Assembly (NCBI GenBank): GCA_001644045.1
Contig: LUUF01000043.1
Location: 124,001-188,000 of the forward strand
From: Methylomonas methanica
Lineage (GTDB): Bacteria > Pseudomonadota > Gammaproteobacteria > Methylococcales > Methylomonadaceae
Reading direction: 5' to 3'
DNA length: 64,000 bases
In this document: positions 6,080 through 31,165 of the stretch, piece by piece
Numbering within the stretch: position 1 is the stretch's first letter
Layout: each line of letters starts with the position of its first letter
Notes under the pieces: generated by a model
Seen by the model: only the letters and a program-made list of their open reading frames with translations
The model's database searches: none
What the model was told of the DNA's origin: nothing
Program-made: the position numbers and the translations under genes

Positions 6080-6126
6080 TTATCTGTTTACAAAATCAAT
6101 GCCAAACCCGTTCAGGAGACTTAAAG

Positions 6127-6483: not shown

Positions 6484-6501
6484 GAATTCGAGGAAATAGC
6501 T

Positions 6502-8620: not shown

Positions 8621-8640
8621 AGGTTTTCTCGGCCACTCTT

Positions 8641-8662
8641 CGCTCCCGCAAAAGCGGGAGCG
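8641..8662 (+). terminator. Hairpin terminator after nifS
   Basis: CGCTCCCGC-AAAA-GCGGGAGCG forms a perfect 9-bp stem with a tetraloop, 20 bases after the nifS stop and just before the convergent gene ending at 8669. The T-tract is weak (GTCTTAG), so efficiency is uncertain. Confidence 0.7.
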
Positions 8663-8668
8663 TCTTAG

Positions 8669-9025
8669 CTAAATCCCGCCATAAATCCTGTTCACCATTC
8701 GGTAAAACCACCTTGGTTTACTCAGGATAATTCCAAACGCGACAACCGGCGTCACCGGTACCGGCGCAATATCGACAATGAATAATCCCAATAAGCTTAA
8801 AAAGCAGTTGATTCTGCTTTGCCTGGTTTGTTCGGCTGAATAGGTCGGGGATACCTCGGCGGGTACACTTGCATTAGCGTACATATTCTCGATTAAGCCC
8901 CTAAACCAGAGCGGCCGCAGCGCAACCACATACATGCCTATCAAGCAGCCGGGTGAAACCGGCCCGAAGCCTATGATGGCAAACAGGGAAAATGCGGCAA
9001 GGCATTTGATTTGGGATGAATTCAT
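8669..9025 (-). CDS. Small membrane protein of unknown function, 118 aa
   Basis: I do not recognise it. Two hydrophobic stretches are visible, at residues about 8-34 (LAAFSLFAIIGFGPVSPGC onward) and about 75-100 (CFLSLLGLFIVDIAPVPVTP, VVAFGIIL). Between them is a polar loop rich in Ser, Ala and Thr. The ends RPLWFRGLIENMY and KPRWFYRMVNRIYGGI resemble each other, which suggests an internal duplication of a TM plus WFRG/WFYR amphipathic motif. It is convergent with nifS and shows no nif-type promoter. Confidence 0.6.
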   Translation of the reverse strand: MNSSQIKCLAAFSLFAIIGFGPVSPGCLIGMYVVALRPLWFRGLIENMYANASVPAEVSPTYSAEQTRQSRINCFLSLLGLFIVDIAPVPVTPVVAFGIILSKPRWFYRMVNRIYGGI

Positions 9026-9113
9026 AAACCATACTGGGTCTGAAAAACAAAAATTACGGGCAATACCAACGACACTGTGGTTGCTGCGCTACGCCTCCCT
9101 AGACGATTAACAA

Positions 9114-9139
9114 AAAAGGCGGTTGTTTAACCGCCTTTT
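9114..9139 (-). terminator. Rho-independent terminator of PEP-CTERM gene
   Basis: AAAAGGCGGTT-GTTT-AACCGCCTTTT is flanked by six As, read as a T-run on the minus strand. It lies 24 bases beyond the stop of the minus-strand gene at 9163 and could work in both directions. Confidence 0.85.
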
Positions 9140-9162
9140 CTGGATTTGGATGCGCTATTTGA

Positions 9163-9792
9163 TCAAATTTTCCGGGTTTTTCTGGTAAGACCCAGACCGG
9201 CTAATGCGGTGCCGAACAACCATACGGCGCCTGGTAAAGGGACGGCGGCAACGTTAAAGTTGATATTGTTAATGCCATTGTTCCAGTCGGTTCCCAAAAT
9301 AATATTTAGCGAATGTGCGGTTAGGTTGGGTGAAAAAGTCTGTGTAGCGAAACGAGAAACCTCGTAGGGCCCGTAATTGACCAGTATATTGGAAAAATCA
9401 TTGCCATCGACCACTCGGAAATCAGTAGCAGTCAACGTGGAGTTAACGGCTCCCGTTGGATATGCCGCAACGTCGAAACTATTCAGGGTTATAGATTGAT
9501 TAGGATTAACCGCAGTCAACTTGATGCTTAAAAGCAAACCGCTGGTATGGGCAAACGCCGCGGTATTGAGGTCTGCGTATCCTGCATTCCACAACAAAAC
9601 ATCTGAATATGCCTCCGAGCCGTTCAGGTTCAAGCTTGAATAAGATACCGTCACATCAGGTGTAGAGCCATATCCGATTGGAATTGGGTCATAGTTGTTA
9701 AAGGGCAGTAACGAGTCAAAATTAATTGTGGCCGCTTGAGTGTTAAATGCGGCGGCAATCAGAATGAGTGGATAAATTTTTTTGGATAACAT
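9163..9792 (-). CDS. PEP-CTERM sorted exported protein
   Basis: The 209-aa protein has a signal peptide (residues 1-20, LSKKIYPLILIAAAFNTQA) and a C-terminal sorting tail VPLPGAVWLFGTALAGLGL followed by basic residues (TRKTRKI). That tail is the PEP-CTERM signal read by exosortase/archaeosortase-type EpsH enzymes in exopolysaccharide-producing bacteria. The body is Asn/Ser/Thr-rich and beta-prone, with no catalytic motif. It is likely a secreted or surface matrix protein. It stands alone, with a terminator directly downstream. No exosortase gene is in this window. Confidence 0.85.
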   Translation of the reverse strand: MLSKKIYPLILIAAAFNTQAATINFDSLLPFNNYDPIPIGYGSTPDVTVSYSSLNLNGSEAYSDVLLWNAGYADLNTAAFAHTSGLLLSIKLTAVNPNQSITLNSFDVAAYPTGAVNSTLTATDFRVVDGNDFSNILVNYGPYEVSRFATQTFSPNLTAHSLNIILGTDWNNGINNINFNVAAVPLPGAVWLFGTALAGLGLTRKTRKI

Positions 9793-10144
9793 CTTAAAAC
9801 TCCTTCAATGTTTGTTTAAGTAAGTCCATCGATTCACTGCAACCCGGCAAAAGTCGGCACAGCTTTTGGTTCACTAAACAGTGCAGCAAACGGCCGGCCA
9901 TTTTTTTTTGTTTCTTTAATGTTGATTTTATTCAATGGCTTAGTGGTGGCTTTCTGTCGAGATTCTATACGTAGGTACTTTAAAGGCCGGATTGTGTAAA
10001 TAAAGCTGACACTGTTGATGCGGTGCAATATTTCGAATCCATCAATTAAACGCTAATTCCGGAACTCGCAATATTTTCCCGATTTGCAAACACTGGAAAA
10101 GGGGAAAACAGCGAAGGGATTGGCTGCGTTCCCCGAACTTTGAC
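9793..10144. other. Intergenic region without recognised gene
   Basis: This 352-bp stretch between two minus-strand PEP-CTERM genes holds an A/T tract (run of Ts near 9902-9910) and no ORF with convincing coding character. No sigma-54 or NifA element was found. A promoter for the gene starting at 9792 is presumably within it but I could not identify one. Confidence 0.4.
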
Positions 10145-11128
10145 TTACGCCGGACGGCGTTTGGCGAAAAGCAAGCCCGTCATGCCGCTAACAAAAAATA
10201 CGATAGAGCTAGGCAGCGGTACCTGACTGACCACGGCACCGGCAAATAGCGCATGAACTTGCGTGGTTGGATGGAAATCGTCCCAAAACACTCGGCTAGC
10301 CGGATCGGAACACGCATCCGGCAAACTTACGCAGGCTTCCGTGGCATTGGTGAACCCGTAGGCAGTAGGATTTTGCACCAGATTGTTAAAAAAATTATAA
10401 GAATCGAATTGCACGATTTGGGTATTGGAGAACGCTGTGGACAAGGTTCCTAGCTGGTCGGCCAGCTCTTGGTTGAATTCGAGGGAATAGTTTTGTGCTG
10501 CCGCGGCCGCAATTGGAGGAAGTGATTGCGCAAAGGGGGTAATGCTCAAATCCGGTAAATTCGGCACCACGATATGCTGCGCGCCAATGCCGATTAAAGC
10601 GCCGACGTAGCCGGCGATATTCCGCGCCGCCAATGTTGCTGAGTCGCCGGTCAAAAAATCGTTAGCCCCGCCCCATACAAAAAACAGCGAGTCTGGCGTG
10701 ACAGCGTTGATAAAGCTCGGTGTCGATGAAAAAAGGCCGACTTGTTGCGTCATGCCGGGCGCGAATTTCGTGCCTGGGCTGGTTTGGCTGCCGCCATCGC
10801 CCTCGTTGCCTATCCCGGTGGTCGAACCCGCGACCGCAAAATTAAAGAAATTGCCGGCATTGCCGCCGCCGGACAGAACGGAGTTAGCTATATATTCCAC
10901 GGCTGTGGGACCGTTGCTAATGCGCCCTTGGTAATAAGGCGGACAGGGGTGGTCAGGATCGCATTGCCCGGCCAGGTTATAAGCACTTAATACCGAGGAA
11001 GCGCTGGTTCCGCTATCCGAGAGACTATCCCCGAAAACGAATAAATTTGAAAAAGGCGTAGCTCCAACTTGGCTGCTAGCCAGGAAAGATGTGAAAAACA
11101 GCGCGAGAACATAGGGTTTCTTCATCAT
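10145..11128 (-). CDS. GDSL/SGNH-family esterase with PEP-CTERM tail
   Basis: The 327-aa protein has a signal peptide (KKPYVLALFFTSFLASSQVGA). The SGNH hydrolase block I FGDSLSDSGT carries the nucleophile Ser, GGANDF is block III, and block V WDDFHPTTQ holds the Asp-His pair. Spacing matches the phospholipase/lecithinase/hemolysin branch of GDSL lipases. The C-terminus VPLPSSIVFFVSGMTGLLF plus AKRRPA is a PEP-CTERM variant, so the enzyme is exported and sorted to the surface. Likely activity is an ester hydrolase of unknown substrate. The start is a double ATG; either codon may be used. Confidence 0.9.
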   Translation of the reverse strand: MMKKPYVLALFFTSFLASSQVGATPFSNLFVFGDSLSDSGTSASSVLSAYNLAGQCDPDHPCPPYYQGRISNGPTAVEYIANSVLSGGGNAGNFFNFAVAGSTTGIGNEGDGGSQTSPGTKFAPGMTQQVGLFSSTPSFINAVTPDSLFFVWGGANDFLTGDSATLAARNIAGYVGALIGIGAQHIVVPNLPDLSITPFAQSLPPIAAAAAQNYSLEFNQELADQLGTLSTAFSNTQIVQFDSYNFFNNLVQNPTAYGFTNATEACVSLPDACSDPASRVFWDDFHPTTQVHALFAGAVVSQVPLPSSIVFFVSGMTGLLFAKRRPA

Positions 11129-11452
11129 GTCTATCTCCGTTGGGTTGTGTGTGAATCTTCAAGAATTTACTGGATAAAGCCCATCGCCGTGTAAGCAGCC
11201 ATCCGGAAGGCATAATATTTTCAGACTGCTTTTTGTTGCAACCTATTAGTGTGTTTATCCGCGCTCTAACTAAGATCCGGGTTTCGCCAAAATCGCTCGA
11301 ATCGATACCTTGCGCGCTATCTCAACAAGTGCCACGGAATTGAGATGACGCCAGCGTAACTCAGGCTGAGCATTCTCGTCTAACGTTTTAATAGTGCTGC
11401 GGGTCTTTCCTTGTATATGGGGATGGCCTGATTTGCATATGTGTTGATGGAT

Positions 11453-11468
11453 TGTCGCGTTTACGACA
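11453..11468. promoter_or_regulatory. NifA upstream activator site for nifV operon
   Basis: TGTCGCGTTTACGACA matches TGT-N10-ACA exactly and extends to the perfect inverted repeat ATTGTCG-N6-CGACAAT. It is centred about 100 bp upstream of the sigma-54 element at 11552. Confidence 0.92.
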
Positions 11469-11551
11469 ATTCGTCTCTCTCCCCGGAAGTTGTCTTGTCG
11501 GCATTACGCCAACGCGTCTTTCCAGCCCATAAATTTCCACGGTTTCCCAGT

Positions 11552-11567
11552 TGGCAAGTCTTTTGCA
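11552..11567 (+). promoter_or_regulatory. Sigma-54 -24/-12 promoter of nifV operon
   Basis: TGGCAAGTCTTTTGCA has GG-N10-GC spacing and a perfect TTGCA -12 element. It lies 70 bp before the nifV ATG. The rest of the 509-bp gap upstream of nifV (11129-11637) holds the NifA site and otherwise nothing recognisable. Confidence 0.92.
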
Positions 11568-11637
11568 TTAATCCTATCGAAGGCGTTATTCACGCTCCGG
11601 TTTTCAAATATTTAACTTTGCGACTCAAGGTTTAGCC

Positions 11638-12762
11638 ATGAAAAGCAACTCCAGAACCATCGTCATCGACGACACCACGCTCCGCGACGGCGAACAATCG
11701 GCCGGCGTAGTGTTCTCGTTGGAGGAAAAGTTGGCGATTGCCGGACAGTTATCCGCGCTGGGTGTGCCGGAGTTGGAGATTGGTATCCCGGCCATGGGTG
11801 CACAGGAACGGGACGAAATAAAAGCCATTGCCGCATTAAAACTGCCCAGCAATTTATTGGTGTGGTCGAGGATGCGGGAAGAAGATTTGCAACACTGCCT
11901 GGGTTTGGGCGTCGGCACGGTGGATTTATCGATTTCCGCGTCCGATCAACATATCCAACACAAACTGAAACAAAGTCGGGCCTGGGTGCTGGCTACCATC
12001 GAGCGCTGCGTGAAGACTGCGGTCGATGCCGGTATGCAGGTTTGTGTGGGTGCCGAGGACGCTTCCCGCGCCGACGGCGATTTTCTGGCGTTGATGGCCG
12101 AGGCTGCGCAAGCTGCCGGCGCCTGCCGGATTCGCTTCGCCGATACGGTCGGCATTATGGAACCGTTCGGTGTATTCGAAGCGATTCGCAAACTGCGCGC
12201 CGTCACCGACATGGATATCGAAATGCACGCCCACGACGATCTGGGCTTGGCAACCGCCAACACCTTGGCCGCGGCATATGCCGGCGCCACTCACGTCAAT
12301 ACCACCGTTAACGGTTTGGGCGAACGGGCCGGCAATGCCGCTTTGGAAGAAGTAGTGGTGGGCTTGAAGCAACTATACGGCTTCGAAACCGGCGTGGATT
12401 TGCGCAATTTTCCAGCTCTGTCCCGTCAGGTTGCGACCGCTTCCGGCGACACGATAGGCAGCCGCAAAAGCCTGATCGGCCGCGATGTGTTCAGCCACGA
12501 AGCCGGCATCCACGTCGACGGTCTGCTGAAAGATCCCAACAATTATCAAGGTGTCGATCCCGCCTTGGTCGGTCGTAGCCACCAGCTAGTGCTTGGCAAG
12601 CATTCCGGCAGTCAAGGCGTGATGCATGCCTACAAGCAACTGGGTATCCAAATTAACCGCTGGCAGGCCGGTCGCCTGCTGCCGTTGATCCGCGAGTTTG
12701 TCAGTTTGCACAAACGCGCACCACAATCGACCGATTTGAATCAATTTTTACACAGCCTATAG
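11638..12762 (+). CDS. nifV: NifV homocitrate synthase
   Basis: The 374-aa enzyme is of the HMGL-like/isopropylmalate synthase family. The N-terminal [12 protein letters not shown] motif carries the catalytic Arg/Asp, [13 protein letters not shown] holds the metal-binding His-x-His, and [14 protein letters not shown] is the second signature. It condenses acetyl-CoA with 2-oxoglutarate to homocitrate, the organic ligand of FeMo-cofactor. The length is typical of NifV and lacks the leucine-regulated C-terminal domain of LeuA. It heads the operon nifV-ORF55-cysE-TPR-ORF40-nifW-nifZ-nifM-clpX under its own NifA/sigma-54 promoter. Confidence 0.96.
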
Positions 12763-12773
12763 CGAGGTGTCAG

Positions 12774-12941
12774 ATGAGTAGCAATCGTCAAAAACCAGCC
12801 GTGCCCAGCACCGCCAAAGTCGACGTACCACAGCACAATCCGGCGCAGCACGAACTGCAGGATGATCGTTACCCCGGTACATTTTTCCGGGTGCCTGGCG
12901 TGCCCATGCCCGGTAAAACCACCTGGAGCTTGGCAAAATGA
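12774..12941 (+). CDS. Small nif-operon ORF, 55 aa
   Basis: This short ORF starts 11 bases after the nifV stop with a GAGGTGTCAG ribosome site, and its TGA overlaps the cysE ATG (ATGA). The product reads [19 protein letters not shown], then about 20 residues of polar, Gln/His-rich sequence, then [19 protein letters not shown] and WSLAK. It is soluble, Pro-rich and has no cysteine. I do not recognise the family. The tight coupling on both sides argues that it is translated, perhaps as a small accessory protein or to couple nifV and cysE translation. Confidence 0.65.
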
Positions 12942-13714
12942 TGTTTTTCTCGCCGTCGCGTCCCAGCGTTGCGTCCGGACTCTGGCAAGACTGGCGCGAC
13001 GATGTGGCCTGCGTATTTGCCCGAGATCCGGCGGCGCGCGGCTTGCCGGAAGTGTTATTGGCTTATCCCGGCGTACATGCGGTATTGTTGCATAGGGTAA
13101 CCAATCGCTTGTGGCATGCGGATTGGAAATTGACCGCGCGTTTACTGGCGGCTTTTGCCCGCTGGCTGACCAATGTCGATATTCATCCCGGCGCGACGAT
13201 AGGCAAGCGCTTTTTTATCGACCACGGAGCCGGCGTGGTGATCGGCGAAACCGCCGAGATCGGTCACGACGTGACGATGTATCACGGCGTGACGCTGGGC
13301 GGCACTACTTGGAACAAGGAAAAGCGCCATCCGACGCTAGGCAATAACGTGCTGATCGGAGCCGGCGCCAAGATCCTCGGTGCGATCACCTTGGGCGACA
13401 ACGTCCGGGTCGGCGCCAACTCGGTGGTGATCAAAGATGTGCCGCCTTGCTGCACGGTGATAGGAATTCCCGGCCGTATCATTCAACAAAAAGGTTTGAA
13501 GATTCAAGATCCGCGCGGTATCGATCTGGACCACCATCTGGTGCCGGATCCGGTCGGCAAAGCGTTGAGCTGTCTAGTGGACCGCCTGGACGAGCTGGAA
13601 AGCAACCAAAAACGCTTTGTGGTGGCGGAAGAGACTTGCGGTAGCTGCGAAGCGGAAGGTGTCTGTCACGGCGAGGATGTGGTGATGCTGAAACAAGCGG
13701 CGGGCGGTAAGTGA
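12938..13714 (+). CDS. cysE: Nif-linked serine O-acetyltransferase
   Basis: The 258-aa protein has an N-terminal helical segment and a left-handed beta-helix of hexapeptide repeats (about 85-185: [36 protein letters not shown]). It acetylates serine to O-acetylserine, the cysteine precursor. In Azotobacter a dedicated cysE copy follows nifV and feeds cysteine to NifS. The C-terminal extension carries three cysteines ([12 protein letters not shown]) not found in standard CysE. They might sense redox or bind a cluster, which is speculation. It overlaps the 55-aa ORF upstream and the next gene by one base downstream. Confidence 0.94.
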
Positions 13715-14253
13715 TGGAAATGGATTTACTGCAATTCGACGCCAAGGATCTGTATTACGAGAAAGCGGACAGCCAGGAAGTGGAGGACTTGATCCAATAT
13801 GCCTCCGAACTTTACGCCAGCGGCGAAGCGGAGTTACCGCTGTTACAGGCTTATTTACGAGCACCGGAATCCTTGAACGTGCTGGTGTCGTTGAATCGAT
13901 TTTATTACTACCAACATCGGCTGACGGACGCCTTGTTGATTTCCGAAAGAGCGTTGACGCTGATCCGACCCGGTATCGATTTTCCGGAAGATTGGCGGCA
14001 GCTGGAAAGAGAACACATCAGCGAGGCGCCGAAAGACTTGCTGACCCGGATCAGGCTGTATTTGTTCACCTTGAAATCAATCGGATTTCTGAACATGCGC
14101 TTGGAAAATCTGGAGTTGAGCCGGGCGATTTTCGAAAAGTTGGTGTCATTGGACGACAAAGACCGGATTGGGGCACGAGGTTTGTTGGAATTGGTCGTGC
14201 GTCGTCAGGAAGCGGCGGAAGGGATTTTCCGCATGCCGCAAGCTTTCGGGTAG
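13714..14253 (+). CDS. Helical-repeat (TPR-like) protein of the nif operon
   Basis: The 179-aa protein is all-helical by inspection, with TPR-like helix pairs such as LLQAYLRAPESLNVLVSLNR, RLTDALLISERALTLI and LENLELSRAIFEKLVSLDD. It has no catalytic motif. The ATG at 13714 overlaps the cysE stop (TGATG). It lies between cysE and nifW and is transcribed with them, so a scaffolding or chaperone role in nitrogenase maturation is plausible but unproven. I recognise it only as a nif-neighbourhood hypothetical; it is not NifW, which is the gene at 14456. Confidence 0.8.
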   Translation: MEMDLLQFDAKDLYYEKADSQEVEDLIQYASELYASGEAELPLLQAYLRAPESLNVLVSLNRFYYYQHRLTDALLISERALTLIRPGIDFPEDWRQLEREHISEAPKDLLTRIRLYLFTLKSIGFLNMRLENLELSRAIFEKLVSLDDKDRIGARGLLELVVRRQEAAEGIFRMPQAFG

Positions 14254-14327
14254 GCATTGCCCATTAAGCAGATGCAATCGATAAGTGATGTTTGTTGTTC
14301 CGCGCAATTAACCTAAAGGTGATCGCC

Positions 14328-14450
14328 ATGATGAAGAAACAAAAATCCGATCCATTTTTGGCCCAAACAGCTGTGATGCTGGTGGTTTTATTAGTGGTGT
14401 ACGCATTGGGAGAACAACCTGCCAATCTTGATCACCTGATGATGAGGTAA
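14328..14450 (+). CDS. Small single-span membrane ORF, 40 aa
   Basis: ATG ATG AAG AAA starts a 40-aa protein with one clear transmembrane helix (residues 14-28, AVMLVVLLVVYALG), a basic N-terminus (MMKKQKSD) and a short His/Met tail. An AAAGGTGATC ribosome site precedes it. Its TAA overlaps the candidate nifW ATG at 14450. N-in topology is expected from the positive-inside rule. I do not recognise it, and it has no known nif counterpart that I can name. Confidence 0.6.
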   Translation: MMKKQKSDPFLAQTAVMLVVLLVVYALGEQPANLDHLMMR

Positions 14451-14455
14451 TGACG

Positions 14456-14770
14456 ATGAGTTTAGAAGAAGATATGGAAGAGCTGGAGGCCGCGGAAGAT
14501 TTTCTGCGGTATTTCGAGCTGGAATACGATACCACCGTCGTCCACGTCAACCGGCTACATATCCTGCAGCGTTTCCACAATTATCTGAGTCAGGCCGGCG
14601 ATAACATGCCGGAAGACGAAGATGCGCAACGGGAAGTCTACAAAAAGCTGTTGCAGCGCGCTTACAGCGATTTCGTGGATTCCGATGCGCAGACCGAAAA
14701 AGTATTCAAGGTCTTCAAAATGATGGAACCGCAAACCGTGTTTGTTTCACTAGGCGACATTAAAACATGA
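14456..14770 (+). CDS. nifW: NifW nitrogenase stabilising/protective protein
   Basis: The acidic protein of about 104 aa shows the NifW core LEAAEDFLRYFELEYDTTVV, then NRLHILQRFHNYL and RAYSDFVDSDAQTEKVFKVF. I prefer the ATG at 14456 (MSLEED) because ATGAGGT lies 9 bases upstream. The ATG at 14450 overlaps the previous stop and has poor spacing. NifW interacts with the MoFe protein and NifZ and affects oxygen stability and P-cluster maturation. The stop overlaps nifZ by 4 bases. Confidence 0.94.
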   Translation: MSLEEDMEELEAAEDFLRYFELEYDTTVVHVNRLHILQRFHNYLSQAGDNMPEDEDAQREVYKKLLQRAYSDFVDSDAQTEKVFKVFKMMEPQTVFVSLGDIKT

Positions 14771-15243
14771 TAGAAGAACGTTACGACGAAGAGCGCTTCG
14801 AATTCGGCGAGCGAGTTAGGCTGACGCGTAACGTTCGCAACGACGGCACTTACCCGGGTATGGATGTCGGCGACTTCTTGCTGCGCCGGGGTAGTGTCGG
14901 CAACGTCATCGAAGTCGGTACATTTTTGCAAGACCAAGTGATCTATACCGTGCATTTTCTGGATGCCGGACGCATGGTGGGCTGTCGGGCCGAAGAGTTG
15001 ATCTCTGCCGATGCACCTTGGAATCCCAGCCGTTTCGAGTTCCGCGATCAGGTGGTTTGCACGATCGACATCCCGACTCAAGACGGCAACTTTCCTGCCG
15101 GCACCCAAGGCGAAATCCTGAAAGTGTTGCGAGACAGCGATCCCTTGCTCTACCACGTGCGTTTTCCGGGTAAAACCATGCAGGTGCCGGAGAGCGTGTT
15201 GGAGCCCGCGGACCCGGCTACGTTTAAAGAACCGGAGGCATAG
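14767..15243 (+). CDS. nifZ: NifZ, two NifZ domains
   Basis: The 158-aa protein starts with the canonical NifZ block FGERVRLTRNVRNDGTYPG, then GDFLLRRGSVGNVIEVGTFL and DQVIYTVHFLDAGRMVGCR. A second, weaker copy follows (FEFRDQVVCTIDIPTQDGNF, GTQGEILKV, LYHVRFPGKTMQVPE). It acts in formation of the second P-cluster of the MoFe protein with NifW. It overlaps nifW and ends 2 bases before the nifM ATG. Confidence 0.95.
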   Translation: MIEERYDEERFEFGERVRLTRNVRNDGTYPGMDVGDFLLRRGSVGNVIEVGTFLQDQVIYTVHFLDAGRMVGCRAEELISADAPWNPSRFEFRDQVVCTIDIPTQDGNFPAGTQGEILKVLRDSDPLLYHVRFPGKTMQVPESVLEPADPATFKEPEA

Positions 15244-15245
15244 TG

Positions 15246-16097
15246 ATGAGCCAGACGTCGATAGAGCCTTACACCCTGTTGCGGGCCTCGTTGAGCCTAT
15301 TCCAGAAGGCGCCGGCCGAATTGGAGCAACTGCAATTGCGCCAGGTGGAAGTGCAAGCCAAAAACGAATACGAGATAGAAGGCCGGGTATTGAATTCGGC
15401 CGAAGCCACCGGTGTGGTAATTTCCGATACGGAACTGGATAGAGCCTATAAGGAAGTGCGCGGCCGTTTCGAAGACGAAGAGGCATTTTTAGCGGCGTTG
15501 AGCGCCAACGGTTTAGATATTGATCTGTTGAAAGCCGCCTTGTACCGGCAGTGTAAGGTCGATGCGGTAATGGATAGAGTGGCCGCGCGGGCGCCCAAGG
15601 TCAACGAGGTGGAAATCGGCATTTTCTACCACTCGCACCCGGAAAAGTTTCACAAACCCGAGCAGCGGCAGGCCAGGCACATCTTGATCAGTATCAATCC
15701 GGATTATCCGGACAATACCCGCGAGGCAGCCTGGCGTCGGATTAACGAGATTGTCGGCACCTTGAAACGCAAACCGCATAAATTTGCCGATCTGGCGCTG
15801 AAATATTCGGAATGTCCGACGGCGGTGCAGGGCGGTGAAGTGGGTACAGTAGCCAAGGGCACCTTGTTTCCGGAACTGGATGCGGTATTGTTTGCTTTAA
15901 AAGAAGACGCCATCAGCGATGTGGTGGAAACCGAGATGGGCTTTCATGTGATTCAGTGCATGAAAATCGTCCTCGCCGAAACCATGTCCTTAAAAAAAGC
16001 GACACCGAAGATTCAGCAGATCATGCAGGATCGTTACCGCAGAAATTGCCAGCGCACGTGGCTGGCCAGTCTGCCCGCAGTCAACAGGAGTGCCTAA
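15246..16097 (+). CDS. nifM: NifM peptidyl-prolyl cis-trans isomerase
   Basis: The 283-aa protein has an N-terminal SurA-like helical part and a parvulin domain at about 130-245 (RQARHILISINPDYPD, ALKYSECPTAVQGGEVGTV, ETEMGFHVIQC). NifM is required to activate the Fe protein (NifH). I use the ATG at 15246 although a GTG stands immediately before it. It lies in the nifWZM-clpX string and overlaps the possible upstream GTG start of clpX. Confidence 0.94.
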   Translation: MSQTSIEPYTLLRASLSLFQKAPAELEQLQLRQVEVQAKNEYEIEGRVLNSAEATGVVISDTELDRAYKEVRGRFEDEEAFLAALSANGLDIDLLKAALYRQCKVDAVMDRVAARAPKVNEVEIGIFYHSHPEKFHKPEQRQARHILISINPDYPDNTREAAWRRINEIVGTLKRKPHKFADLALKYSECPTAVQGGEVGTVAKGTLFPELDAVLFALKEDAISDVVETEMGFHVIQCMKIVLAETMSLKKATPKIQQIMQDRYRRNCQRTWLASLPAVNRSA

Positions 16098-16098
16098 C

Positions 16099-17400
16099 AT
16101 GGTAAAAGAACCCAAGCATTGTTCGTTTTGCGGTATCGAAGCGTCGGCGGCCGTGCCGATGATCGCCGGCACGGAAGGCTATATCTGCGAGGCTTGCGTG
16201 ATGTTGGCCAGTCAGGTGGTATCCAGCTGGGGTAAGAAAAAAGAATTGGCCGATATGCAAGGGCCGCTGCCCAAGCCCGCCGAAATGAAGGCGATGCTCG
16301 ATCAATACGTGATTGGGCAAGACTTGGCTAAGGAAATCCTGTCGGTAGCGGTTTACAACCACTACAAGCGCTTAAAACACGTCGGTAACAAAACCGGCGG
16401 CTTGGGCGAAGCCGATGACAGTATCGAAATCGGTAAATCCAATATTCTGATGATAGGTCCGTCCGGCACCGGGAAAACCCTGCTGGCCAGCACCTTGGCA
16501 AAAATCGTCGGCGTGCCGTTTGCGGTAGCGGATGCCACCACGCTGACGCAGGCCGGTTATGTCGGCGACGACGTGGAGAATATTCTGGTGCGCTTGCTGG
16601 ACGTGGCCGACGGCCAGATCAGCAAGGCCGAATGGGGCATGGTCTATATCGACGAGGTGGACAAGATCGCCCGGAGCCCGGAACAGGCCTTCGGTACCCG
16701 CGACGTTTCCGGCGAAGGTGTGCAACAGGCATTGTTGCGCTTGGTCGAGGGCTCGCATGTCAAGGTTCCTTCCAAGGGCCGGCGCAAGGATCACAGCGGC
16801 AACGATTCGGTGATGGTGGATACCAGCAATATTTTGTTCATAGCCGGCGGCGCGTTTCCGGGCTTGGAAAAGCATGTGGAAAAACGCCTGCTGCCGCCGA
16901 AAACCGCCATCGGTTTTCATGCCGAAGTCAGCAATCCCGACGACAAGCCTACGCTGGAAGCGATGTTGAATGCCACCCAGCCGGACGATTTGAAACGCTT
17001 CGGTTTAATACCCGAGTTTATCGGCCGCTTCCCGGTGCTGGCGCCGCTGGAGCCGCTGGATGTGGATGCCTTGATTCAGGTATTGACCGAGCCGAAAAAT
17101 GCGTTGGTTAAACAATACCAACAGCTATTCGCTTTTGATGAAGTGGAACTGGAGTTTACCCAGGATGCCCTGGTGGAAATCGCCGAGAAAGCCATAGCCC
17201 GCAACACCGGTGCGCGCGGCCTGCGCGGCATTATGGAACACGTATTGCGCCGCACCATGTTCGATCTGCCTTCGCGCCCGGATGTCGAACGCTGCATCGT
17301 CAACGCCGACGTGATTCGGGGTGAGGGCGAGATTGAAGTGGTGCCGCGCGAGAAATCCGGCGAGGCGGATGATTTAAAGCGGTTGTCGGGAGGGGAGTGA
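16099..17400 (+). CDS. clpX: Nif-linked ClpX-type AAA+ unfoldase
   Basis: The 433-aa protein has the N-terminal zinc-binding domain (CSFCG and CEAC), Walker A GPSGTGKT, Walker B VYIDEVDKIA, the pore loop region and sensor motifs. The ATG at 16099 follows CAGGAG at 8 bases. Several positions differ from housekeeping ClpX, which suggests a nif-dedicated paralogue. In Azotobacter the clpX2 gene lies at the same place after nifM and influences levels of NifB/NifEN; the same role is inferred here. No clpP is adjacent. It is the last gene of the nifV operon. Confidence 0.93.
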   Translation: MVKEPKHCSFCGIEASAAVPMIAGTEGYICEACVMLASQVVSSWGKKKELADMQGPLPKPAEMKAMLDQYVIGQDLAKEILSVAVYNHYKRLKHVGNKTGGLGEADDSIEIGKSNILMIGPSGTGKTLLASTLAKIVGVPFAVADATTLTQAGYVGDDVENILVRLLDVADGQISKAEWGMVYIDEVDKIARSPEQAFGTRDVSGEGVQQALLRLVEGSHVKVPSKGRRKDHSGNDSVMVDTSNILFIAGGAFPGLEKHVEKRLLPPKTAIGFHAEVSNPDDKPTLEAMLNATQPDDLKRFGLIPEFIGRFPVLAPLEPLDVDALIQVLTEPKNALVKQYQQLFAFDEVELEFTQDALVEIAEKAIARNTGARGLRGIMEHVLRRTMFDLPSRPDVERCIVNADVIRGEGEIEVVPREKSGEADDLKRLSGGE

Positions 17401-17560
17401 TTTCCTGTTTTTTGACACTTTAGATTGGTGTCGCTGTCGCGACGGATGCTTTTTAAGTCGGTGCTCGGACCGACAGCCGAGATACTTTTCTTTGCTTGTC
17501 CAAAGAAAAGTATCCAAAAGAAAAGACACCCGGATGCCGCGTTGACCCTGCGCTCCGTAG

Positions 17561-17652
17561 CGTTTATCGAGGGTCGGCAGAAGGGGCTTCCCAGCCCCTC
17601 CGCCGACGCGCCGCTTCCTTGCGGCGCCCCTTCGGGTTGTTCTCGATAAACG
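17561..17652. repeat. Large palindromic intergenic element
   Basis: The 11-bp arms CGTTTATCGAG (17561-17571) and CTCGATAAACG (17642-17652) enclose two internal hairpins: AGGGGCTTCCCAGCCCCT near 17581 and a GCCGC/GCGGC stem near 17612. Upstream, 17484-17524 repeats the string AAAGAAAAG. The 382-bp gap between clpX and the glutaredoxin gene holds this and the element at 17702 but no gene. It looks like a dispersed REP/BIME-type repeat. Confidence 0.65.
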
Positions 17653-17701
17653 CCACGGTGCTCGGCGCGGCATACGGGAGATAGTCTACGTAGCTGCGTA
17701 G

Positions 17702-17728
17702 GATGGGCTGAACAACGTGAAGCCCATC
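17702..17728. repeat. Inverted repeat GATGGGCT / AGCCCATC
   Basis: Perfect 8-bp arms with an 11-base loop of the form GATGGGCT-N11-AGCCCATC. It resembles the widespread intergenic class GGTGGGTT-GAACG-AAGTG-AACCCA. It lies 55 bp before the glutaredoxin-BolA gene. Confidence 0.55.
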
Positions 17729-17782
17729 GGTCGCGAAATGACGATTTGCTCTTCAGAATTTTAGTTAATTGAGAATACCACT

Positions 17783-18400
17783 ATGAGCGTTAAAGAAAAA
17801 ATCTTGCAACAACTTGCCGAAAACCCGGTGATTATTTACATGAAAGGCGTGCCTAGCGCACCGGAGTGCGGGTTTTCCGCCAAGACCGTGGGCATCTTGA
17901 ATGAAACCAAGGTCCCCTACGCTTACGTCAACGTATTGCAATCGCCGTTCATCCGCGAAAAGCTGCCGTCTATTTCCAAATGGCCGACGTTTCCGCAAGT
18001 GTTCATCAAGGGCGAACTGGTCGGCGGTGCCGACATCGTCGAATCCATGTACAAGGACGGGACCCTGCTGCCGCTATTGCAAGCGACTGTTCAACCAGCC
18101 GAGAGCGCGGACGCCAGTCAAACTATTACCCATTCCGAAGTGGAAGCCTTGATTTTGGCCTCCTATCCCGGAGCGACCATCGGCATCGAAGGAGCGGGTT
18201 GCGATTTAAACATTACCGTGGTTAGCGAATTGTTCGCCGATCAAGCCATGATCAAGCAACACCAAGGCGTAATGGCGACGCTGAGCGCGCCATTGGCTAG
18301 CGGCCGGCTGCATGCCGTCACGTTGAAAACCCATACGCCCGCAGCCTGGGCCGCGCTACAACCGGCGGCAAATCCGGGCTTGCTCCAGATTCAAATCTGA
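17783..18400 (+). CDS. Monothiol glutaredoxin (CGFS) fused to BolA domain
   Basis: The 205-aa protein joins two partners usually encoded separately. Residues 1-105 form a Grx4/GrxD-type monothiol glutaredoxin with the CGFS cysteine at C29 and the glutathione-binding WPTFPQVFIKGELVGGADI. A short linker (about 106-116) leads to a BolA domain (about 117-195) with VEALILASYPGATIGIEGAG, HQGVMATLSAPL and the conserved C-terminal His in GRLHAVTLKTH. Grx-BolA pairs share a [2Fe-2S] cluster and serve in Fe-S trafficking. Directly upstream of nifF and near the nif genes, it probably handles clusters during nitrogen fixation, like the Grx5-nif gene of Azotobacter. No sigma-54 promoter was found upstream. 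Confidence 0.9.
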   Translation: MSVKEKILQQLAENPVIIYMKGVPSAPECGFSAKTVGILNETKVPYAYVNVLQSPFIREKLPSISKWPTFPQVFIKGELVGGADIVESMYKDGTLLPLLQATVQPAESADASQTITHSEVEALILASYPGATIGIEGAGCDLNITVVSELFADQAMIKQHQGVMATLSAPLASGRLHAVTLKTHTPAAWAALQPAANPGLLQIQI

Positions 18401-18424
18401 TTTAGTTAACAAGGAGATATCACT

Positions 18425-18955
18425 ATGGCAAAAGTAGGCATTTTTTTCGGTACCGATACCGGCAACACTCGCAAAGTCGCCAAGACTATCGCCACCAAGT
18501 TGGGCGATGCCGCCGACAAACCGGTCAATATCAATAAGGCCTCCGTGGATGATTTACTGGCCTACGACGTATTGATTTTGGGTTCGCCCACGTACGGCGA
18601 AGGCGAATTGCCGGGCATGAGCGCCGGACACGATAACGAAAGCTGGGAAGAGTTTCTGCCGACTTTGGCCGGCGCGGATTTTACCGGCAAAACCGTGGCG
18701 ATCTACGGTTTGGGCGACCAGGAAGGTTATCCCGGCCATTTCGTCGATGCCGTGGGTTTCCTGTACGACGCTTTTGCCGATGCCGGCGCGACCATCGTCG
18801 GTATGACCAGTAGCGAAGGCTATACCTTTAAAAAGTCCAAAGCCTTGCTGGGCGACCAGTTCGTTGGCTTGGCTTTGGACGAAGACAACCAGAAAGAGCT
18901 GAGCGAAGGCCGTCTCAGCGATTGGCTGGCTTCGATTTCCGCCGCCTGGGCTTGA
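18425..18955 (+). CDS. nifF: NifF-type long-chain flavodoxin
   Basis: The 176-aa protein has the FMN phosphate loop GTDTGNTRKVAK near the N-terminus, SPTYGEGELPG and GLGDQEGYPGHFVDA, and the long-chain insertion. It matches NifF, the electron donor to the nitrogenase Fe protein. An AAGGAGATATCACT ribosome site lies in the 24-bp gap after the glutaredoxin-BolA gene, so the two are one transcript. Confidence 0.95.
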   Translation: MAKVGIFFGTDTGNTRKVAKTIATKLGDAADKPVNINKASVDDLLAYDVLILGSPTYGEGELPGMSAGHDNESWEEFLPTLAGADFTGKTVAIYGLGDQEGYPGHFVDAVGFLYDAFADAGATIVGMTSSEGYTFKKSKALLGDQFVGLALDEDNQKELSEGRLSDWLASISAAWA

Positions 18956-18965
18956 TAGGCCAGCC

Positions 18966-19406
18966 ATGATCGAAGAAGCGGCCGTCGTTACCCGCGTTAG
19001 CGACGGCCGAACCTGGATCAAAAGTCTGCAAAGCAATGCCTGCAGCGGCTGTTTGCAACAACAGTCCTGCGGCACGGCCACGCTGGCAAAGTTTTTGCCA
19101 AAACGCGAGTTTCCAGTCGATTGCGAAATAAACCTGCAAGCCGGCGACCACGTGATGGTGGCGATAGACGACGGTCAACTGCTGCTCACATCGCTATTAC
19201 TCTACCTGGTGCCGTTGATTTTCATGCTGGTTGGCGTCGGTTTGGCCGAAGCCTGGTTACCCGCGCCGTATAACACCGATTACTTACCCGAAGTTGCGTT
19301 CGCAACATTGTTGGCCGGCTTTTGGTTGATTAATCGCAGTCAAAATCTGTTACTGCTTCATCTCTGTTTTAAGCCGCAGATCGTCAAAAAACTCGGCGAC
19401 GAGTGA
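18966..19406 (+). CDS. rseC: RseC/MucC family membrane protein
   Basis: The 146-aa protein has a cytosolic N-terminal domain with clustered cysteines (CSGCLQQQSCG), two transmembrane helices (about 75-97 LLLTSLLLYLVPLIFMLVG and 110-128) and a basic tail. RseC belongs to the SoxR-reducing complex next to Rnf-type electron transport and in other species sits with rseAB. Here it follows nifF by 10 bases, without sigma-E genes. Its product may work in redox control or an Rnf-type electron path to flavodoxin; that link is inference from position. Confidence 0.88.
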   Translation: MIEEAAVVTRVSDGRTWIKSLQSNACSGCLQQQSCGTATLAKFLPKREFPVDCEINLQAGDHVMVAIDDGQLLLTSLLLYLVPLIFMLVGVGLAEAWLPAPYNTDYLPEVAFATLLAGFWLINRSQNLLLLHLCFKPQIVKKLGDE

Positions 19407-19415
19407 GTTTCCGCT

Positions 19416-19431
19416 TGTTGAATGGCTAACA
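19416..19431. promoter_or_regulatory. NifA upstream activator site before 106-aa gene
   Basis: TGTTGAATGGCTAACA fits TGT-N10-ACA exactly, with flanks giving TTGT-N10-ACAA. It lies 114 bp upstream of the sigma-54 element at 19545. Confidence 0.85.
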
Positions 19432-19544
19432 ATTTCGCCCGGATGTTGTGCGGTTGTTGCAATGCTGCCTCGAAATAATACACGCAAACTGTGATGCACC
19501 CCTGAAAGTCCTTGTCGCCCGGGCCTTGCGGCGGTTTCATTCCG

Positions 19545-19560
19545 TGGCATTGATGTTGCT
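19545..19560 (+). promoter_or_regulatory. Sigma-54 -24/-12 promoter of 106-aa gene
   Basis: TGGCATTGATGTTGCT is a full match to TGGCAY-N5-TTGCW with GG-N10-GC spacing. It is 95 bp upstream of the ATG at 19656. With the NifA site it makes the next gene a predicted nif-regulon member. Confidence 0.9.
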
Positions 19561-19655
19561 GTAGGTCAATTGAAAACCATTGGGATTTTCAAGCGGTAGC
19601 GGGCACGCGCCAAGGCCCGTTGCCCATTTTTTGGCAATGTCATTAAGGTGATGAG

Positions 19656-19976
19656 ATGAGCGAAGTTCTATTGGTGGGTTTGATTATGTTGATTGTGGCG
19701 GCCTGCGCATTCGCGCCCCTGGGTTGCATGCTCTCGGCTTATGCAAAGTCGTCGAGTAAATCCGGCGGTGCTGGTAAAGCAGTAGCAGGTAGCGCCGGTG
19801 ATTTAGGGAGGGGTTTGCCCGAGGATTCCATCCTCAAACGGCATTTTTTGACGCAATTGCAAAGCGAGATTGAAGCGACTTTGTTTCCGCGGCCAACCGA
19901 CTCGATGCTGCAACGGCATTACGATTCGTTGGTGGCGGCCAAGGTGGAAAACCGATTGCAAATTATCGGAAAATAA
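19656..19976 (+). CDS. Unknown NifA-regulated membrane protein, 106 aa
   Basis: The N-terminus has one strong transmembrane segment (residues 4-30, VLLVGLIMLIVAACAFAPLG, then CML). A Ser/Gly/Ala-rich flexible linker follows (about 31-50), then a charged helical tail with a repeated LKRHF/LQRHY pattern (SILKRHFLTQLQSEIE and SMLQRHYDSLVAAKVEN). The two His/Arg helices look like an internal duplication of about 30 residues. I do not recognise the family. It is preceded by a complete NifA/sigma-54 promoter, so expression during nitrogen fixation is predicted. It lies upstream of modBC, separated by a hairpin, so a role in molybdenum or electron supply is possible but unproven. Confidence 0.8.
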   Translation: MSEVLLVGLIMLIVAACAFAPLGCMLSAYAKSSSKSGGAGKAVAGSAGDLGRGLPEDSILKRHFLTQLQSEIEATLFPRPTDSMLQRHYDSLVAAKVENRLQIIGK

Positions 19977-19993
19977 CCCCCTTGCCGTCGGTG

Positions 19994-20017
19994 TAGGTGC
20001 GGAGAATTTCGCACCTA
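19994..20017 (+). terminator. Hairpin between 106-aa gene and modB
   Basis: TAGGTGCG-N8-CGCACCTA is a perfect 8-bp stem 18 bases after the stop. No T-run follows, so it may be a weak terminator or attenuator rather than a complete stop. Confidence 0.5.
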
Positions 20018-20051
20018 TATTGCCGATTCCATTCGTCCGTACCGTTTTTCT

Positions 20052-20067
20052 ATACGCCAATGCGTAT
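20052..20067. promoter_or_regulatory. Palindrome upstream of modB, possible operator
   Basis: ATACGC-CAAT-GCGTAT is a perfect 6-bp-arm palindrome 92 bp upstream of the modB start. Its position suits an operator, but it does not match the known ModE half-site pattern, so the binding protein is unknown. Confidence 0.4.
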
Positions 20068-20158
20068 TTTGCTGGCATTTCCCCCGCCCGATTAGCGAAA
20101 ATAGACCGCAGATGTGTCGCCTCGTGGCGATTTCCCCGTCACTTAGACCAGGCTTTGC

Positions 20159-20845
20159 ATGCTAAACGCCGCCGATCTCGACACCTTGTTTTTGACCTTC
20201 CGCGTCGCCAGTCTGGCTACCTTGCTGTTGCTGTTGTTGGGTACGCCGTTGGCCTGGAAGCTGGCGCGCAGCCGCTCGCGCTGGAAAGGCGTGATCAATA
20301 GCATCGTGGCGCTGCCGCTAGTGTTGCCGCCGACGGTATTGGGTTTCTATTTATTGGTGTTGATGGGGCCGGCCGGGGTGGTGGGTAAATTCACCCAGTG
20401 GCTGGGTATCGGCACCTTGCCGTTCAGCTTTGGCGGCTTGGTCGTGGCGTCGGTATTGTATTCGCTGCCGTTCGTGGTGCAGCCTTTGCAAAATGCCTTT
20501 GTGGCGATGGGCGAGGCACCGCTGGAAGCCGCCGCGACCTTGGGAGCGGGGCCGTTGGATCGGTTTTTCAGCGTGGCGCTGCCTTTGGCGAAGCCGGGAT
20601 TTTTAACCGCCGGCGTGCTGGGTTTTACCCATACCGTCGGTGAATTCGGCGTGGTATTGATGGTGGGCGGCAATATTCCCGACAAAACCCGCGTGGTATC
20701 CGTGCAAATTTATAATCATGTCGAAGCCTTGGAATACGGCCAAGCGCATTGGTTGGCCGGCGGCTTGCTGATCTTTTCCTTCCTGGTGTTACTGCTGTTG
20801 TATAACAGCCAACAAACCCAAGCACTGACGCAATCCTTGAAATGA
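20159..20845 (+). CDS. modB: Molybdate ABC transporter permease ModB
   Basis: The 228-aa protein has five to six membrane helices and the binding-protein-dependent permease EAA loop ([20 protein letters not shown]). The motifs [19 protein letters not shown] and [20 protein letters not shown] are diagnostic for ModB. It carries molybdate across the inner membrane for FeMo-cofactor and Moco. The stop overlaps modC by 4 bases. No modA lies in the window, so the binding protein must be encoded elsewhere. Confidence 0.95.
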
Positions 20846-21933
20846 CCATGTCCCACGTGTCAAGCATTCAGGCCCGCTTGCGCCTGGCTTACGACCAATT
20901 CGATTTGGCTGTTGATTTAAAGCTGCCGGCCAACGGCGTGACGGTGTTATTTGGTCATTCCGGTTCCGGGAAGACCACGTTGTTGCGTTGCATCGCCGGC
21001 TTGGAGCGGCCGACGCAGGGCTTTTTGAAAATCGGCGAAACGCTTTGGCAAGACAGCGACAGCGATTTTTTCCTGCCCACCCATCGGCGTAACCTGGCTT
21101 ATGTGTTTCAAGAGGCCAATCTGTTCCCGCATTTGTCGGTGCGCGGCAATCTGGATTATGCGGTGCGGCGCTTGCGCACCAAGGATCGGGTATTCCCCTT
21201 AGAACAGGCTATCGAATTGCTGGCGATAGGCCCGTTGCTGGCGCGTTTGCCTGCCCGGCTATCCGGCGGCGAGCGGCAACGGGTCGCGATTGCCAGAGCC
21301 TTGGCGGCTAGTCCGGATGTGTTGCTGATGGACGAGCCGCTGGCCTCGCTGGACGAACAACGCAAGCAGGATATTCTGCCTTACCTGACCGGCTTGCATC
21401 AGGCCTTGCAGATACCGATTCTGTACGTCACCCACTCCTTGCAAGAGGTGAATCAACTGGCGGACCACTTGCTGGTGTTGGCCGCCGGCAAAGCGGTGGC
21501 CTGCGGGCCGCTGGCTGAAACGTTGACTCGGCTGGACGGGCCCATGGCCTTGGATCGGCAAGCGGCCAGCGTCTGGCAGGGCAAGTTGATTAGCCACGAA
21601 GCCGAGTATCATCTCAGCCATGCCGAATTCGCCGGCGGCAGTCTGAGTTTGCCGTATTTGGACATGCCGATTGGTAGCCCGGTGAGAATTAGAATTTACG
21701 CCCGCGACGTCAGTATTACCTTGCAACCGCCGGAAGCGTCCAGCATTCTGAACATTTTGCCGGCCCGGGTGCTGGCGCTTAGCGAAATGGGGCAGGGCCA
21801 AACCGTCGTGCAATTGGCGGTGGGCGACGAGGTGCTGCTGGCGCATATCACGCAAAAATCGGCGATGTTGTTAGGTGTGCAGCCAGGCATGGCCGTATAC
21901 GTGCAAATCAAGGGTACTTCCATAGTCCGGTAG
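20842..21933 (+). CDS. modC: Molybdate ABC transporter ATPase ModC
   Basis: The 363-aa protein has Walker [14 protein letters not shown], the signature [15 protein letters not shown], Walker [13 protein letters not shown] and a C-terminal Mop/TOBE domain of about 130 residues ([39 protein letters not shown]). The Mop domain binds molybdate and gates the transporter. ATG or the second ATG two codons on may start translation. The gene is coupled to modB. Confidence 0.95.
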
Positions 21934-25320: not shown

Positions 25321-25345
25321 AGTATTAAATGATTTAACGCCTCGC

Positions 25346-26139: not shown

Positions 26140-26143
26140 TTTG

Positions 26144-29176: not shown

Positions 29177-29182
29177 ATAGTC

Positions 29183-30145: not shown

Positions 30146-31000
30146 TTAAGCTGCGACAGCCGCGGCTTGTAAGGATTGCAGGAAGTCCTGGCAGTCGGCG
30201 TTAATCAGTTCAAAGCCCATTTTCGCGCTAAAGCGTTTTTCCTTGTCGGTAGGGTTTTTCCGTAAAAACCAGCCTCTATGTTCCTCGGCACCGTAGGTTA
30301 TATCGCTCATCACCATGCGCTCGGAATCGCGGTTTAGCGGCAAGCCCAGCAACAGGTATTTTTTGCCTTTGCGGTAATCCTTTAAAAAGTCGGGAATCGC
30401 GAAACCGCCCATTAGTTCGGTGATGTAATCGACGTAGTCGGCATCGGACGCAATGTAATTGGATTCCGGTCTTGGCGTACCCATCGGTTTAAACAAAATC
30501 GGCAGGTTTCTATCGACTTGTTCCTGCGGAATTTCGAAATAGCTGCTGCCGTCGTAATGATAAATTTTGAAACGAAAGGCGGTCGCGACGATGCGCGCCA
30601 CGCCAACGATTAATGTGTGTTCTTCGTCGGAATAACTATCTTGTAACTGGGTGTCGCGATTGACGTCGACCACGTATTTGGGCCGCCATTCTTTCAGCCA
30701 ATCGTGCATGGAAGCCCGGGTGTATTGAATTTGTCCGTAAGTCTTGTCCAGAAACTGGGATACATAGTTACGGCCGCGCTTCAGCTCCTGGTTCATCGCC
30801 GCGCGCGGAAACTCGTACATCAATTTCGGTGCCATCGGTTTGCCGCCGTTCATCGCCAGAATCAGGCTGTTGCTGTCGGCCGGCATCGGTTCGTGCGTCA
30901 GTTTACTTTTGGCATCGAATACTGCCCCCGGCCCCAGATAAGGGATGACTTGGTTATCGTACAAGCCGCTTAGTATTTCGGTAATTACGTTGTTAGCCAT
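30146..31000 (-). CDS. SIR2-like protein under NifA/sigma-54 control
   Basis: The 284-aa protein begins MANNVITEILSGLYDNQVIP followed by YLGPGAVFD (residues about 21-29), which resembles the NAD-binding start of SIR2-like domains. KKYLLLGLPLNRDSERMVMS and WFLRKNP lie near the C-terminus. These motifs fit a SIR2_2-type fold, but I am not certain. I chose the ATG at 31000 because GGAGCG lies 6 bases upstream; earlier in-frame codons fall inside the promoter. A complete NifA/sigma-54 promoter precedes it, so it should be expressed during nitrogen fixation. It stands alone, so it is transcribed by itself. Possible roles are NAD-dependent regulation or protection of nitrogenase; no function can be asserted. 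Confidence 0.85.
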   Translation of the reverse strand: MANNVITEILSGLYDNQVIPYLGPGAVFDAKSKLTHEPMPADSNSLILAMNGGKPMAPKLMYEFPRAAMNQELKRGRNYVSQFLDKTYGQIQYTRASMHDWLKEWRPKYVVDVNRDTQLQDSYSDEEHTLIVGVARIVATAFRFKIYHYDGSSYFEIPQEQVDRNLPILFKPMGTPRPESNYIASDADYVDYITELMGGFAIPDFLKDYRKGKKYLLLGLPLNRDSERMVMSDITYGAEEHRGWFLRKNPTDKEKRFSAKMGFELINADCQDFLQSLQAAAVAA

Positions 31001-31038
31001 AAAACGCTCCATCGGTAAGTAAAGTGATATTTGACTAA

Positions 31039-31054
31039 AGCAAGTTTTAATCCA
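31039..31054 (-). promoter_or_regulatory. Sigma-54 -24/-12 promoter of SIR2-like gene
   Basis: On the minus strand the sequence is TGGATTAAAACTTGCT, with GG-N10-GC spacing and a perfect TTGCT. The -24 part differs from TGGCAC at its fourth base. It lies 39 bp upstream of the ATG at 31000. Confidence 0.8.
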
Positions 31055-31149
31055 GTTTGTTGATGGACTCGCAAGCTTTATTCCATCTAGGGTTGTGCGG
31101 GGTGGGGAGCGGCTGGGAATGGTAACAACCGTATAAACTTCGGTGAAAT

Positions 31150-31165
31150 TGTCGGAAGTGCGACA
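31150..31165. promoter_or_regulatory. NifA upstream activator site of SIR2-like gene
   Basis: TGTCGGAAGTGCGACA matches TGT-N10-ACA and extends to TTGTCG-N6-CGACAA, the same extended form as at nifV. It is 96 bp upstream of the -24 element. The rest of the 393-bp gap (31001-31393) holds only a REP-like palindrome. Confidence 0.88.

Follow-up and report, generated by a model that had tools for sequence, protein, structure and literature searches.

Introduction

Why would a member of an NAD-linked protein family be switched on together with nitrogenase, and what would its product do there? This question is raised by a single SIR2-like gene in a 64,000-nt stretch of a Methylomonas methanica contig (LUUF01000043.1; hereafter the window), which is preceded by candidate NifA and sigma-54 promoter elements. 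A sequence-only reading had proposed that the gene is activated by NifA far from the nif genes and that its product may sense NAD or modify a protein of nitrogen metabolism, by a logic similar to that of DraT/DraG. Our comparison with relatives of the locus supports this interpretation in part. We consider it probable that the gene is a nif accessory gene under NifA/sigma-54 control and that its product is a SIR2-like, probably non-catalytic protein acting as a stoichiometric binding partner.

The SIR2-like gene and its genomic surroundings

The open reading frame is present as described, with its ATG at 31000 and a product of 284 amino acids (Table 1). Our set of relatives comprised the best 80 of 286 copies found, which together with the window copy gives 81 sequences. 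An ATG is found at the aligned start position in 79 of the 80 relatives, and in the remaining one, L076, the match begins at residue 5. A longer in-frame reading from a TTG at 31195 was rejected, as this start is unconserved and the in-frame open stretch spans at most 61 codons in 79 of 81 upstream regions. The SIR2-like assignment was borne out by a Pfam SIR2_2 match over residues 112-266 (E 5.5e-6, 27 bits against a cut-off of 24.5), and searches of NCBIfam and PADLOC gave no match for the protein. The genome itself holds one match to the gene, and the four nearest copies, all from named Methylomonas, are 94-96% identical to the 284-aa protein. Within the methanotroph-type protein the motif PY[LMI]G is present in 80 of 81 copies, and the segments ASDADYVDYITELMGGFAIP and RDSERMV are very strongly conserved among the relatives.

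Table 1. Features of the window that bear on the SIR2-like gene and its regulation
Feature	Position	Strand	Remarks
Second nif cluster: iscA-nifU-nifS, nifV-cysE-nifW-nifZ-nifM-type-clpX, grx-bolA, flavodoxin, modB-modC	6064..21933	+	
NifA-type promoter TGGCATGCTGGTTGCT before iscA/nifU block	5952-6079	+	TGT-N10-ACA 96 nt upstream
NifA-type promoter TGGCAAGTCTTTTGCA before nifV	11453-11567	+	TGT-N10-ACA 83 nt upstream
SIR2-like CDS	30146..31000	-	284 aa, ATG at 31000; from ORF and relatives' starts
Likely ribosome-binding site GGAG	31007..31010	-	read off the sequence before the ATG
-24/-12 (sigma-54) element TGGATTAAAACTTGCT, TGG-N8-TTGC	31039..31054	-	conserved at the same place, 80/81
NifA upstream activator site TGTCGCACTTCCGACA, TGT-N10-ACA	31150..31165	-	conserved at the equivalent stretch, 78/81

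The gene stands alone on the minus strand, outside any nifB-nifZ-nifT operon, and faces a second nif cluster, whose rotamase is of the NifM type. The end of modC is 8.2 kb from the SIR2-like gene, and the nifH of the same genome is on another contig. The same arrangement was seen in five relatives (L001-L004 and L116). In another, L006, the gene lies about 0.5 kb from the flavodoxin end of the second nif cluster, and in L007, L008 and L117 it lies about 2 kb from the mod end. With nifUSV, cysE, nifWZ and modBC in the window itself and a distance of only 0.5-2 kb in these close relatives, it is not accurate to describe the gene as remote from nif genes. Among the 104 genomes of the order Methylococcales that carry both the gene and nifH, the two are divergent within 2.5 kb in 40, 2.5-50 kb apart in 16, farther apart on one contig in 14, and on different contigs in 34. 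Furthermore, in L118 the SIR2-like gene directly follows a nifQ-like gene.

The interval between the mod genes and the SIR2-like gene (22174-30106, plus strand) holds genes for a TonB receptor, a CrtC-like lipocalin and a YfiR-like protein, and two further frames which by sequence inspection resemble a hybrid kinase of 1020 aa and a response-regulator/GGDEF protein. L007, L008 and L117 showed no match to this block at that place.

A conserved predicted NifA/sigma-54 promoter

By themselves the two promoter elements are weak, and one sequence proves little. The window holds 14 TGT-N10-ACA sites against 9.0 expected, and 14 was reached by 7 of 100 shuffles. A scan for the strict consensus TGGCACG-N4-TTGCW with up to three mismatches returned 127 sites against 129, without any excess; the -24/-12 element of the SIR2-like gene, which has four mismatches and misses the CACG part of this consensus, was not listed by it. 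The two elements are 95 nt apart, and TGT-N10-ACA sites are usually found some 80-150 bp upstream of the start.

What raises the promoter above chance is its conservation. We searched upstream of the gene for TGG-N8-TTGC at -45 to -70 and for TGT-N10-ACA at -125 to -245. The former, a motif chosen post hoc from the same relatives in which it was then counted, was found in 80 of 81 upstream regions, the latter in 78, and both together in 78, the 81 copies being kin sequences and not 81 independent trials. At 163 other gene starts, drawn from the loci without nifH near the gene and from the window (L014 left out), the corresponding numbers were 0, 7 and 0, and among 20,000 random 500-mers they were 61, 528 and 14. 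In a looser control that included nifH and other nif genes, both elements occurred at 41 of 420 starts. Three copies fell short of both elements: L014 has neither, its nifH lying about 6 kb upstream, and in L054 and L076 the activator site is absent from the -125 to -245 range. The gaps between the elements cluster near 54, 65, 77, 87 and 97 nt among the 81 copies, about one helical turn apart, a pattern that DNA looping would favour; the strength of this apparent periodicity at 10.5 nt was 0.62 over all gaps and 0.46 over the distinct values. A second TGG-N8-TTGC, TGGAATAAAGCTTGC, is present at 31071-31085 on the minus strand, 31 nt upstream of the conserved element, and no element was listed at this place in the relatives.

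A divergent nifH lies within 2.5 kb upstream of the SIR2-like gene in 49 of 80 loci, and the activator site could therefore have been that of nifH. As an explanation of the site by nifH alone, this was set aside: of the 18 loci in which the 2.5 kb upstream are free of nifH, 16 retain both elements. The remaining 13 loci are too short to judge, and all 13 carry both elements. Likewise, one single relocation away from nifH was set aside on the tree of the copies, in which the label "not next to nifH" has to change nine times; this label takes in copies beside the second nif cluster, and the too-short loci were left unlabelled. Since both elements persist in the nifH-distant copies and the tree needs nine changes, the promoter most likely serves the SIR2-like gene itself. 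Against this background it is very improbable that the elements are chance matches and the gene stands outside NifA regulation. The scans of the window, without clear excess, would agree with that view, but the two elements occur together in 78 of 81 copies and at none of the 163 control starts, and 16 of the 18 copies without a nearby nifH retain them.

The genome as a whole points in the same direction. The combined pattern was matched 14 times, at 13 places, while its reversed form had 2 matches. Four of these places precede nifH, nifV, the iscA/nifU block and the SIR2-like gene. A fifth lies 50 nt upstream of a long frame that runs towards nifA; this frame remains open over at least 483 codons, up to where the locus stops some 0.2 kb before nifA, and by its position it could be nifL. 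At the remaining places no nif gene was recognised with our query set; one of them (L145) has in its vicinity a further regulator, whose AAA domain resembles that of NifA. The nifA gene is encoded at C85:74139-75635 (TIGR01817, 638 bits against a cut-off of 528.85). At the sequence level, promoter conservation, its persistence away from nifH and the presence of NifA in the genome thus lend strong support to NifA/sigma-54 control of the gene, and the co-occurrence with nifH described below to its link with nif, as the sequence-only reading had claimed.

Co-occurrence with nifH

Across 201 genomes of this order, which the named relatives indicate to be Methylococcales, the SIR2-like gene was found in 108 and nifH in 106 (limit 1e-60; G130 was counted though under the cut-off). 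Both were present in 104 genomes, the gene only in 4, nifH only in 2 and neither in 91. Three of the four gene-only genomes (G148, G156, G166) carry copies that are partial, split over two frames or interrupted by a stop; in the fourth, G087, the gene is whole and the assembly has 430 contigs. In a sample of the class (274 genomes), nifH accompanied the gene in 21 of 22 cases, the exception being G466, where the gene lies at a contig end, and 5 of 26 nifH-positive genomes had no match to the profile of the methanotroph type (A1), one of which, G213, matches the mixed profile A3. In a sample of the phylum (299 genomes), nifH was present in 13 of 16 gene-positive genomes (exceptions G506, G530 and G711), and 24 of 37 nifH-positive genomes had no gene match. 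The three samples overlap by a few genomes. Matches to nifH under the cut-off, with E of about 1e-61 to 1e-69, were left out in 5 class and 17 phylum genomes; we take them to be chlorophyllide-reductase-like. Partial nifH genes were counted in G279 and G576 and left out in G748 (9.5e-86).

According to these counts, the gene is close to nif-exclusive, yet it is not used by all diazotrophs. Both the co-occurrence and the decay of copies in genomes lacking nifH strongly suggest that it is tied to nitrogenase.

Loci L103, L104 and L105 show such partial or broken SIR2-like copies, in Methylococcales genomes where nifH gave no match. L103 and L105 additionally hold nearby pieces of another nif-cluster gene, L099 909-1871 (minus strand). 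This gene encodes a protein of about 320 aa beside a 4Fe4S leucine-rich-repeat gene in a nifHDK cluster, with copies of 68-89% identity in the nif clusters of L100, L101 and L115; it gave no Pfam match at 1e-4. In the phylum sample, G506 and G711 each carry a nifT-type SIR2-like gene (E about 1e-106) and further fragments of such a gene, with no nifH match at 1e-60.

Catalytic residues of the SIR2-like family

A phmmer search with the 284-aa protein and a search with profile A1 returned no SIR2 protein among solved structures. Such structures were matched only by the profile of the nifT type (A2), by A3 and, weakly, by one rhizobial member. A2 matched 7uxt (4.2e-6) and ThsA (0.0019), and A3 matched KomC (2.1e-5). 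ThsA and KomC, phage-defence SIR2 NADases that are thus among the best solved-structure matches by sequence profile, hold a catalytic Asn and a catalytic His and hydrolyse NAD, whereas the nif-linked SIR2-like family appears to be without both together.

The aligned counterpart of the NADase motif TTNYD is VDxWYD in the nifT type and, by way of the A1-A2 alignment, VDxNRD in the methanotroph type. The catalytic Asn (N112 of ThsA) corresponds to N114 of the 284-aa protein and is Asn in all 81 copies; A3 also aligns the N114 column with the TTNYD of KomC. For the His, KLHG of 7uxt aligns with KPLG in A2 over a weak stretch of 3.3 bits. A single unbroken but weak alignment (9.2 bits, whole-sequence E 0.22) sets it against TPHG of the rhizobial member. 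The A1-A2 alignment carries this position to KPMG in the methanotroph type. The KomC alignment through A3 stops with the His of KomC opposite the Asp of HYDG, a different column, and neither candidate column holds His in the methanotroph type. At the position of ThsA H152, on the 7uxt-based mapping, none of the 81 copies has His, 66 have Met and 15 have Leu. The nifT type of A2 has Trp at the Asn position in 11 of 11 members and keeps the His in 4 of 11; the rhizobial members that we read have Trp for the catalytic Asn, with the His kept. One or the other residue is also missing from 6 further A3 members and from 8 of 9 further phylum loci, counting readable ones. Taken together, on the 7uxt-based mapping 0 of 106 copies therefore hold both catalytic residues.

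Mutational studies of related enzymes show what such replacements can mean. ThsA with either N112A or H152A was reported neither to cleave nor to bind NAD, and the authors warn that the oligomer is disturbed by H152A (PMC7272460). N112 and H152 have been termed a catalytic dyad, and in DSR2 H171A was described as lowering activity (PMC11263360). The methanotroph-type protein is thus likely non-catalytic: since each copy that we examined seems to carry a substitution at one position of the catalytic pair, neither NAD cleavage nor protein deacetylation would be expected. This reading is less certain than the promoter. Other His residues are conserved in the methanotroph type, namely 99 and 128 in 81 of 81 copies and 148 in 71 of 81. 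The counterpart of His 99 in ThsA and KomC is a His without a catalytic role, and His 128 or 148 may serve as a stand-in for the catalytic His.

Related genes in other diazotrophs

Sirtuin-like genes linked to NifA are of a known kind, described from Rhodobacter capsulatus and Mesorhizobium loti and so far unexplained. In R. capsulatus, Rcc03262 was reported as not found in the proteomes of nifA1-A2 mutants, and putative NifA and RpoN sites were described for its operon, nifB1-rcc03265-nifZT-rcc03262; this is the only gene of this kind for which we found experimental NifA dependence (PMC6925177). Rcc03262, likened to our gene by its description, is an operon member, whereas the methanotroph gene stands alone (PMC6925177). 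In M. loti, the sirtuin-like gene msi351 is described as ending a nifB-fdxN-nifZ-fixU operon with a NifA/RpoN promoter, and its mutant as fully effective in nodules (PMC3538637). msi351 thus resembles the methanotroph gene in being sirtuin-like and in having a NifA/RpoN promoter, and differs from it as the last gene of a nif operon. The copy at the corresponding position in Mesorhizobium sp. 131-3-5, which we compared in place of that of R7A, is 25.8% identical to the 284-aa protein over 68% of the latter.

Further examples come from other groups. In Zymomonas mobilis, the SIR2-like ZMO1821 is encoded in the nif cluster, and its protein was reported to increase under N2 fixation (PMC8600466, PMC8594446). 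It is likened to the methanotroph gene, by description, as a nif-linked SIR2-like gene, although its authors' prediction of a deacetylase (PMC8600466) differs from our reading. Pseudomonas stutzeri PST_1325, of the SIR2 family, is listed directly before nifH (PMC11332353), which recalls, from the listed order and description only, the nifH-adjacent arrangement in methanotrophs. For Rhodovulum, a figure legend gives the order nifZ-nifT-SIR2 (PMC9412634). Our literature search, which most subscription journals lay outside, found no paper joining sir2, methanotrophs and nitrogenase, and no expression data for the SIR2-like gene in methanotrophs.

A tblastn search of plasmids returned 59 records, all below 60% identity and 58 of them rhizobial. 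The SIR2-like gene directly follows nifT in all four rhizobial plasmid records examined, and a Methylococcus record from this search has it at a later place in a nif cluster that includes nifT. Hhalign related the methanotroph type to the nifT type with a probability of 99.7 (E 5.3e-27, 270 columns), and in the tree the nifT type forms a separate branch, distant from the methanotroph type.

Possible roles of the SIR2-like protein

In the explanation that we favour, NifA bound at its upstream site would activate sigma-54 RNA polymerase at the -24/-12 element, and the conserved sequences suggest that the protein would therefore be made together with nitrogenase. With one catalytic residue replaced, it would most likely neither cleave NAD nor deacetylate proteins, and it could act stoichiometrically, binding a nucleotide or a protein while nitrogenase is made or protected, presumably useful under some conditions and not absolutely required. 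The full effectiveness of the msi351 mutant must be set against any need for a sirtuin-like nif protein (PMC3538637): the protein may matter under some conditions only, in some diazotrophs only, or not measurably. The nifH-positive phylum genomes with no gene match and the missing CACG part of the -24/-12 element also weigh against the favoured explanation. What a non-catalytic sirtuin-like protein does for nitrogenase is thus the question raised by this family, since the residue pattern argues against enzyme activity throughout, unlike the deacetylase reading from Zymomonas. In methanotrophs the gene can be a separate transcription unit. Given its tight co-occurrence with nifH and its broken copies where nifH is missing, these bacteria offer a clean place to delete it with the other nif genes untouched.

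One form of this explanation is an NAD-binding redox sensor, in which an inactive pocket binds NAD(H) or ADP-ribose and relays the state to a nif protein. The PY[LMI]G motif and the very strongly conserved segments would fit such a pocket, whereas the Asn and His mutants of ThsA were reported not to bind NAD (PMC7272460); we regard the sensor as possible, short of probable. A broader and slightly more tentative proposal is a nitrogenase-dedicated pseudo-sirtuin family that lost its NAD chemistry in two opposite ways, the methanotroph type losing the His and keeping the Asn, the rhizobial type losing the Asn and keeping the His. Such a family might have persisted as a ligand-gated partner that helps to assemble or protect nitrogenase, and the methanotroph gene might have taken its own NifA promoter along on leaving nifH.

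It seems unlikely to us that the protein adjusts nitrogenase proteins as an active NAD-dependent deacetylase or NADase, the former being what the authors of PMC8600466 suggested for ZMO1821. Membership in the SIR2_2 family, the Asn of the catalytic pair in every copy and the other conserved His residues would agree with an enzyme, but the most likely position of the catalytic His holds Met or Leu, and the mutants of ThsA (PMC7272460) and DSR2 (PMC11263360) lost or lowered activity when such residues were replaced.

A reversible modifier of nitrogenase working like DraT/DraG, which the sequence-only reading had raised by analogy and which an NAD-linked family and a nitrogenase-linked promoter would fit, is highly improbable: no copy has both catalytic residues on the likeliest mapping, the catalytic His being probably missing, a DRAT domain is absent from the Pfam matches of the protein, and the same genome encodes a separate DraT over the cut-off at C72. 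Least probable of all is an anti-phage NADase gene that came to lie near nif genes by accident, an idea suggested by the defence NADases ThsA and KomC among the closest solved structures by profile, but opposed by the lack of a PADLOC match, by the NifA-type promoter and by the presence of nifH in 104 of the 108 gene-positive genomes of the order.
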